From contig NZ_CP024307.1 in the NCBI RefSeq assembly GCF_002944405.1, positions 1,384,501 to 1,448,500 on the forward strand: a stretch of DNA of 64,000 bases, written 5' to 3'. The DNA comes from Sinorhizobium fredii (GTDB lineage: Bacteria > Pseudomonadota > Alphaproteobacteria > Rhizobiales > Rhizobiaceae). Under the pieces are notes generated by a model. It ran no database searches, was not told where the DNA came from, and worked only from the letters and a program-made list of their open reading frames with translations. The translations under genes were made by a program, and so were the position numbers. Of the stretch, positions 32,263 to 39,473 are shown piece after piece. Each line of letters starts with the position of its first letter. The first letter of the stretch is position 1.

Positions 32263-32730
32263 TCACGGCACGATCAGTCCGCCGCGATAATCGAGCTCAT
32301 AGGCCTCTTCGCCATCGACGAATATGGTCTCGCGTCCGGAAAAGTGGTCGGTCCCGCCGCGGCTGCTGTCGATATAGCAACCATAGGCGTGCTGATATTC
32401 CATGCCGCCGAGGAAGTGGCGCTTCTCGTGATACATCGTCTGCAGCGCCGCCTTGATGACGGCGCCGGCCCGTCGCGCATCGATCAGTTCCGGTCGGACG
32501 ATCCGGCCGAAATAATTCATCGCCCAGCACGGCTTGCCGTCGTGCCAGACCGCTTCCTGACCGGCGAAGTCGCTGCCGCCGAAGTAGCTGTCGAGATAAC
32601 GCCAGGCCCCGCGCTGATGGCCAATATCGTGGGAGCCTGTCCGGCACGCCGGCAGCCTGGCGCCATCACTGACATAGGTTTTAGCCTTAGCTTCGACGAT
32701 GAAGTCTGTGAGTTCGTCGATGTTGATCAT
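32263..32730 (-). CDS. DUF5680 domain protein, possibly SOS-controlled
   Basis: 155-residue soluble protein of unknown function. Its conserved core includes GSHDIGHQRGAWRYLDSYFGG and a second part with YHEKRHFLGG and GCYIDSSRGGTDHFSGRE, typical of DUF5680. I chose ATG 32730, where the family sequence starts and AGGGGA lies just upstream, rather than the longer frame to 32937. It is convergent with lolD (13 bp between stops). A LexA-type box lies 54-68 bp upstream at 32784-32798, so it may be induced by DNA damage. Confidence 0.85.
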   Translation of the reverse strand: MINIDELTDFIVEAKAKTYVSDGARLPACRTGSHDIGHQRGAWRYLDSYFGGSDFAGQEAVWHDGKPCWAMNYFGRIVRPELIDARRAGAVIKAALQTMYHEKRHFLGGMEYQHAYGCYIDSSRGGTDHFSGRETIFVDGEEAYELDYRGGLIVP

Positions 32731-32783
32731 GGGCGTTCCCCTGGTATTGGATTGAGGATGCCTCAAGAGGAGGCGCGTGTAAA

Positions 32784-32798
32784 GAACAAATAGTGAAC
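32784..32798. promoter_or_regulatory. LexA-type (SOS) box upstream of the DUF5680 gene
   Basis: GAAC-AAATAGT-GAAC, which is GTTC-N7-GTTC on the gene strand, matches the alphaproteobacterial LexA operator exactly. It is 54 bp from the DUF5680 start codon. The opposite strand leads, after 230 bp, to the membrane peptide at 33030. Confidence 0.55.
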
Positions 32799-32981
32799 AA
32801 ATGTCTCCGCACCGCAGCCTTTTGGCGGCAGATCGCCCCAAGGCCTTGCGTTTGGACGCCACCCTATTCGTCGATTCGGTCGGCCTGGCGTTTTGCCAGT
32901 CGCGTGGAAAGCTGATCGCCTTGGTTGCATTAACCATAGCCGGTGAATAACGGGCGTTTCATGCGTGCTTGCTTGACTATT

Positions 32982-33007
32982 GAACAAAAATAGAACAAAA
33001 AAAGAAC
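32982..33007. promoter_or_regulatory. Tandem LexA-type boxes (three GAAC half-sites) with -35 element
   Basis: GAAC occurs at 32982-32985, 32993-32996 and 33004-33007. Each pair is separated by exactly 7 bp (AAAAATA, then AAAAAAA), so two overlapping GAAC-N7-GAAC boxes are formed on the same helix face. A CTTGACT -35-like element (32972-32978) lies just before, so bound repressor would cover the promoter spacer and -10. The array ends 22 bp before the start codon of a 28-codon membrane peptide. Confidence 0.65.
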
Positions 33008-33029
33008 AATAGCCGAAAGGAGCCATGTT

Positions 33030-33116
33030 ATGACTGATTTCGTCCGTGATCTCGCTGCCTTCGCCTCGATGACCCTTTTCATCGCCAGCATCTCGGTGAT
33101 CGCACTCGGCATGTGA
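33030..33116 (+). CDS. 28-residue single-pass membrane peptide behind tandem LexA boxes
   Basis: The peptide begins MTDFVRDLAAFASMTLF and ends in a hydrophobic run IASISVIALGM. Residues about 9-27 form one membrane helix after a short charged N-terminus. AAAGGAG lies 6-8 bases before the ATG, a strong ribosome binding site. The gene follows a triple array of LexA half-sites. Size, topology and control resemble Caulobacter SidA, a 29-residue SOS-induced inner-membrane inhibitor of division (acting on FtsW). I see no convincing residue-by-residue match to claim orthology. It lies 130 bp before dnaE. Confidence 0.7.
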   Translation: MTDFVRDLAAFASMTLFIASISVIALGM

Positions 33117-33150
33117 CCGCTCCACCCTTTCCCACGGTCCTCCGCTCTGC

Positions 33151-33180
33151 GGCCCTGGCAAAAACATCCCCGACAGGGCC
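33151..33180 (+). repeat. Hairpin between the membrane peptide and dnaE
   Basis: GGCCCTG and CAGGGCC form a perfect 7-bp stem around a 16-nt loop. No T run follows. It may partly separate the short SOS transcript from dnaE or protect its 3' end. Confidence 0.4.
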
Positions 33181-33246
33181 GGAAGACTGGACAGTCGCGG
33201 CGGGAAACAGGATATCCTCGCACCGAACAGGAATCGGAGTGCGGCA

Positions 33247-36741
<3,495 letters not shown>

Positions 36742-39458: not shown

Positions 39459-39473
39459 GAACAAATGTTGAAC
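39459..39473 (-). promoter_or_regulatory. dinB: LexA-type (SOS) box of dinB
   Basis: On the gene strand GTTC-AACATTT-GTTC is an exact alphaproteobacterial LexA operator. It covers the predicted transcription start and ends 4 bp before the start codon. Repression by LexA and induction by DNA damage are the expected outcome. Confidence 0.8.

Follow-up and report, generated by a model that had tools for sequence, protein, structure and literature searches.

A predicted divergent homologue of the Caulobacter division inhibitor SidA, encoded behind LexA-type boxes upstream of dnaE in Sinorhizobium fredii

The closest described counterpart of the small gene considered here is sidA of Caulobacter, whose product is a 29-residue, SOS-induced inhibitor of the inner membrane that interacts with FtsW (PMC4211646) and through which a lexA deletion mutant filaments (PMC12700426). 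The gene is CCNA_02004 (PMC10769358), the adjacent CCNA_02005 encodes an inosine-uridine nucleoside hydrolase (PMC3667746), and strain CB15 has CC1926 as its main dnaE (PMC1839093). In the literature that we searched we found no account of how rhizobia halt division after DNA damage.

Our analysis concerns a locus in the window, i.e., the whole stretch of 64,000 nucleotides of S. fredii contig NZ_CP024307.1 that was analysed (Table 1). Elsewhere in the genome, a 12-kb piece of contig C3 shares 98.6% identity with a plasmid of Sinorhizobium americanum, and a piece of contig C2 gives weaker matches to Rhizobium, Sinorhizobium and Ensifer. The initial annotation had described three GAAC half-sites forming two overlapping GAAC-N7-GAAC boxes, followed by AAAGGAG and a 28-codon frame, and this layout can be read directly: the half-sites start at 32982, 32993 and 33004, at exact 11-bp spacing, AAAGGAG ends 7 nt 5' of the ATG at 33030, and the stop codon occupies 33114-33116. 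The frame does stand just before dnaE, whose ATG at 33247 is 130 bp downstream, and, having been deemed too short for annotation, it was indeed missed by it. The proposed -35 element holds in part, as TTGACT is present and TTGAC is kept in the family, but a consensus scan of both strands of 32700-33300 calls no sigma-70-type promoter (its one terminator-like site is on the minus strand), so that the promoter assignment depends solely on the conserved TTGAC.

Table 1. Features of the locus and of two further LexA-type boxes, in window coordinates
Feature	Position	Strand	Basis or remark
-35-like TTGACT, peptide promoter	32973..32978	+	sequence; TTGAC kept in family
LexA-type box 1, GAACAAAAATAGAAC	32982..32996	+	sequence; GAAC-N7-GAAC pattern
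LexA-type box 2, GAACAAAAAAAGAAC	32993..33007	+	half-site common to boxes 1 and 2
Shine-Dalgarno AAAGGAG	33016..33022	+	sequence; kept across genus
28-codon gene, predicted SidA homologue, MTDFVRDLAAFASMTLFIASISVIALGM	33030..33116	+	pN/pS, family profile, SidA profile homology
dnaE, DNA polymerase III alpha subunit, 1164 aa	33247..36741	+	Pfam DNA_pol3_alpha, finger, PHP; TIGR00594
separate LexA-type box, GAACAAATAGTGAAC	32784..32798	+	53 bp from divergent DUF5680 gene start
divergent DUF5680 gene, 155 aa	32263..32730	-	Pfam PF18931, E 3.9e-26
LexA-type box before dinB, GAACAAATGTTGAAC	39459..39473		dinB from 39454 downwards, - strand; 4 bp before chosen dinB start

The 28-codon frame is a real gene under purifying selection. 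The block is present in 22 of 23 other same-genus genomes, the exception (G023) being 85% complete, and all 22 genus loci parsed (own genome included, L022 left out) have 28 codons, the sequence of the genus loci diverging past the stop codon. Over 22 genomes of the genus the in-frame pN/pS is 0.13 (mean pS 0.41, pN 0.05) and the shifted frames give 2.5 and 15.6, with 11, 2 and 22 variable sites at the first, second and third codon positions of the frame. Conservation in related genomes, which the initial annotation had made decisive for its reading, extends to the family: whereas a single query peptide matches, at E<=1, 137 of the 297 family genomes (all 90% complete or more), a 23-row rhizobial profile matches 246 of them, from 93 of 106 genera, at E<=0.01, some of the matches being weak. 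Seven of 20 listed non-matching genomes (of 51) are 2.0 Mb or less in size, as is one, of 1.9 Mb, among the matching genomes listed. Several family genomes (G055, G088, G112, G227, G267, G305 and G316 among others) have two or three profile matches, so that paralogues of the peptide may exist in some of them.

The relation to SidA can be approached from the Caulobacteraceae side. In the Caulobacter loci L219 and L222 (C. zeae) a nucleoside hydrolase gene (PF01156, E ~1e-78) diverges from a 29-codon frame before dnaE; the NCBIfam model NF033228, 'cell division inhibitor SidA', scores the L219 peptide at 73.7 bits and matches 20 of 20 Caulobacteraceae pre-dnaE peptides at E<=1. An exact LexA-type box, a 29-codon frame and dnaE occur together in 22 of 30 Caulobacteraceae loci, the exact box being absent within 500 bp in 8 of the 30 and named loci such as L222 likewise having none. 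From NF033228 and the nucleoside-hydrolase neighbour we conclude that the Caulobacteraceae frame upstream of dnaE can be taken as SidA, C. vibrioides itself lying outside the loci read.

When the rhizobial profile is compared with the Caulobacteraceae profile, HHalign returns a probability of 89% (E 2.2e-6), with residues 1-18 aligned ungapped from Met1, and a third profile, made from 30 peptides of other alphaproteobacterial families chosen by box, place and hydropathy, is matched by the former two at 94% and 95% (E 1e-7 and 1.7e-8), respectively. For none of the three profile pairs does any of 200 column-shuffled alignments score as high as the real one, and the highest shuffled probabilities are 15, 7 and 23%. 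The rhizobial HMM ranks the 20 Caulobacteraceae peptides with an AUC of 0.9996 against 261 decoys and of 0.9986 against 5000 shuffles; 18/20 of them and 14/30 other-family peptides score above all decoys, and 10/20 and 6/30 above all shuffles, single sequences being weak. Conversely, the Caulobacteraceae HMM places 22/29 rhizobial peptides above all decoys and 2/29 above all shuffles. NF033228 yields no match to the window peptide at E<=10, which leaves the latter outside that SidA equivalog model; of 23 family peptides it recognises one, at E 0.038, and of the 30 peptides from other alphaproteobacterial families none. NF033228 is a narrow model, whose curated cut-off of 35 bits is passed by 1 of 367 class genomes, with the Caulobacteraceae genome G610 below it at 21.4 bits and Caulobacter vibrioides alone matching among 14 named control genomes.

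The window peptide combines this profile similarity with a length of about 29 residues and one hydrophobic helix (the best 16-residue segment has a hydropathy of 2.1-2.6 in those family frames that were listed, frames under 1.2 having been filtered out beforehand), a LexA-type promoter box and a pre-dnaE locus. We regard it, on the strength of profile comparison, as a divergent homologue of Caulobacter SidA and a putative new distant relative of the known inhibitor; the initial likening to SidA in size, topology and control is thereby supported by profile homology with shuffle controls and by the shared start, length and site. E. coli has SOS-controlled single-helix peptides of the TisB/DinQ type that depolarise the membrane, and the short hydrophobic helix taken alone would suit a LexA-controlled peptide of that kind just as it suits a division inhibitor. 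We nevertheless consider such a depolarising role unlikely, as the homology points to SidA, a division inhibitor, and as the conserved residues (M1, R6, D7, S13 and F17) sit in the first 17 positions, unlike what would be expected of a generic helix.

Less probable still is an upstream-ORF role, in which translation of the frame would regulate dnaE and the peptide would have no task of its own. It would fit the presence of dnaE downstream of the frame in 25 of 25 family loci parsed (of 30) and in 14 of 19 further ones, and it would also fit the Ribo-seq data of S. meliloti, where a translated small ORF, sORF25, is reported in the 5'-UTR of dnaE1 and where some such 5'-UTR sORFs are considered capable of acting as uORFs (PMC10117765). 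S. meliloti Ak57 (CP090106.1) carries the frame MADFVRDLAAFASMSLFIVSISVIALGL, absent from the PLSDB gene table, with both boxes, flanked by an ABC ATPase gene and dnaE. The translated sORF25 of the dnaE1 5'-UTR is very likely this SidA-homologue frame; LexA and SOS go unmentioned in the main text of the Ribo-seq study (PMC10117765). What speaks against a purely cis-acting role is that the amino acids are conserved in genus and family alike and distantly also across the class; that dnaE is absent from the 0.8-1.1 kb fetched downstream in 5 of the 19 loci (L209, L213 and L216-L218), where it may lie further off, a carbamoyl phosphate synthase gene following the box-peptide module in L218; and that the peptide start stands anywhere from ~80 to 620 bp ahead of the approximate dnaE start. 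As a separate observation, the Ak57 record (L316) is labelled plasmid pSymB (3.7 Mb) yet carries dnaE and looks like a chromosome, and the peptide is also found on 'plasmids' of several megabases in Sinorhizobium sp. C101 and in Shinella sp. PSBB067 (L317, L346), so that plasmid labels may be swapped.

As regards the promoter, 90 family loci were read, 77 of them distinct in promoter and peptide. A GAAC-N7-GAAC box lies no more than 75 bp from the peptide start in 76 of these 77 (L332 is one base off), TTGAC stands 4-12 bp ahead of the box in 70, and the peptide is 28 aa long in 76. Loci L001-L026 had been retrieved with a DNA query spanning the boxes and the 64 others by protein; the protein-found loci, 58 of them distinct and with 4 distinct forms common to both sets, have the box in 57 cases, TTGAC in 51 and a tandem pair in 18. 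One box behind TTGAC is the rule, whereas the tandem pair is found in only 27 of the 77 distinct loci, and conservation of both boxes, on which the initial annotation had laid weight, is therefore borne out for a single box.

Across the class, GAAC-N7-GAAC occurs within 500 bp upstream of dnaE in 20 of 76 loci, one of these 20 (L122) coming from the rhizobial family itself; the 76 are what remained of 30 best dnaE matches and 47 hand-picked loci once a locus that was too short had dropped out. Among loci chosen by DnaE similarity it occurs in 47 of 79 (80 given), a candidate frame following the box in 46 of the 80. Each of eleven permuted motifs is found in at most 1/76 and 7/79 loci, respectively, and the reverse orientation of the box in 6 and 2. 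When the class was searched with a profile of the rhizobial peptides, nothing beyond the family matched convincingly, fragments giving the best E value of 0.01, and one class match (G693, E 0.2) was recognised solely through its position before dnaE. Box and frame before dnaE are widespread in Alphaproteobacteria, not universal; the suggestion of an SOS checkpoint peptide of rhizobia stands inasmuch as a predicted SidA homologue is found family-wide, but the gene is not restricted to rhizobia.

The window contains 4 single boxes where 1.66 would be expected, and 8 of 100 shuffles reach 4; the whole genome contains 196, the reversed pattern giving 160. The triple GAAC array is seen a single time in the window and never in 100 shuffles. 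The box alone was discarded as evidence because single boxes are only slightly over-represented, and conservation is the stronger argument for the box than its rarity. That the peptide is a conserved membrane peptide under some other control, with incidental GAAC boxes, gains something from the chance frequency of single boxes and from the recognised SOS genes at just two of nine other box loci scanned, but is scarcely credible in view of the triple array, of a box at nearly one place throughout the family and of its excess over every permuted motif before dnaE in the class loci.

Elsewhere in the same genome, the 15-mer GAACAAAAAAAGAAC of box 2 recurs identically between uvrA and ssb (L305), a similar box precedes a YifB-type gene (L299), and the dinB gene behind the box listed in Table 1 encodes DNA polymerase IV (NF002751, E 4e-219). 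Fourteen box loci of the genome were picked by eye, and neighbours were scanned at nine: L299 and L305 suit an SOS role, and at the other seven there is no recognised SOS gene, either nothing or genes of other kinds being found. The DUF5680 gene on the minus strand has a box of its own ahead of its start; a full-length DUF5680 match is found in 17 of 23 same-genus loci, 16 of them with a box 52-54 bp ahead, and in the seventeenth (L012), where the gene runs past the scanned 900 bp, the same-genome stretch L315 has a box at the expected place. This gene, of unassigned function, is possibly a separate candidate SOS gene.

A 42-residue relative is encoded in the Rhizobium phages V1VFA-S, B1VFA and RHph_X66 and in plasmid pRlX6 of R. 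beringeri, where it is annotated as a hypothetical protein and keeps the core RD-x-AAF-x-S. Three of these peptides were scored with the rhizobial HMM and reach 28.6-29.6 bits, the best of 5000 shuffles reaching 11.1; with the Caulobacteraceae HMM the phage-type peptides do not rank above shuffles, and pairwise searches give weak E values (0.1 to 9; reverse search 0.4). GAAC-N7-GAAC is absent from the 600 bp before the 42-residue gene in the three cases inspected (plasmid L318, phages L319 and L320). Searching viral contigs with the rhizobial profile gave 20 pattern matches, none confirmed, and neither Pfam nor PHROGs holds a family for the window peptide or the phage peptide.

We therefore favour, as the probable reading, a single-helix inner-membrane SidA homologue that would be LexA-repressed, damage-induced and able to delay division via FtsW/FtsI/FtsN. 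LexA, bound to a single box or to an overlapping pair immediately downstream of the -35 element, would keep the gene off; DNA damage would activate RecA, LexA would be cleaved, and a burst of peptide synthesis would follow. The peptide would then insert into the inner membrane and, in a SidA-like manner, hold the FtsW/FtsI/FtsN septal synthesis complex inactive, so that division would wait for DNA repair to finish. The sequence anatomy, the purifying selection, the conservation of box and frame, and the homology and locus shared with SidA are observed; that LexA binds, that damage induces the gene, that the peptide enters the membrane and that it blocks division at this target are steps that we infer, and the function assigned to the peptide derives from homology. 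In Caulobacter, mutations at F145 and A246 of FtsW suppress SidA, and A31K suppresses SidA but not DidA (PMC4211646). FtsW of Sinorhizobium has T, F and A at positions 31, 145 and 246, vs A, F and A in Caulobacter-type FtsW (L334 numbering), and, with A31 replaced by Thr, the contact of the peptide with FtsW may differ from that of SidA.

If this reading is true, the peptide is the missing damage-induced division inhibitor of rhizobia and provides a second, divergent micropeptide for mapping the inhibitory contact on the septal synthase; it would also bear on rhizobia inside nodules, where they elongate and cease dividing. On a broader proposal we are evenly divided: SidA would represent, in the Caulobacterales, an ancient SOS checkpoint peptide of Alphaproteobacteria that was kept beside dnaE with its LexA promoter, diverged past annotation, was lost in some reduced genomes, and was captured by Rhizobium phages as a 42-residue, box-less version that perhaps stops host division during infection. 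In that event, the phage version would exemplify the use of a host checkpoint peptide by a virus.

Compared with SidA itself, the window peptide has the same LexA-type box in front, a single helix and a place upstream of dnaE, with 28 vs 29 residues, and the same ungapped N-terminal alignment with R6, D/E7, S13 and F17. It differs in that the SidA model does not match it, in that its C-terminal half is unlike that of SidA and has no Trp19, in the overlapping double box of Sinorhizobium, and in the upstream neighbours, which in Sinorhizobium are DUF5680 and ABC ATPase genes and not a nucleoside hydrolase. YneA, SosA, SulA and like SOS division inhibitors are larger proteins. They have in common with the proposed role a damage-induced block of division, whereas their genes are, by description, unrelated (PMC4211646). 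DidA of Caulobacter is also small, sits in the membrane and inhibits division by acting on FtsW/I/N (PMC4211646), but is set apart by its description as a 71-residue, SOS-independent protein induced by DriD.
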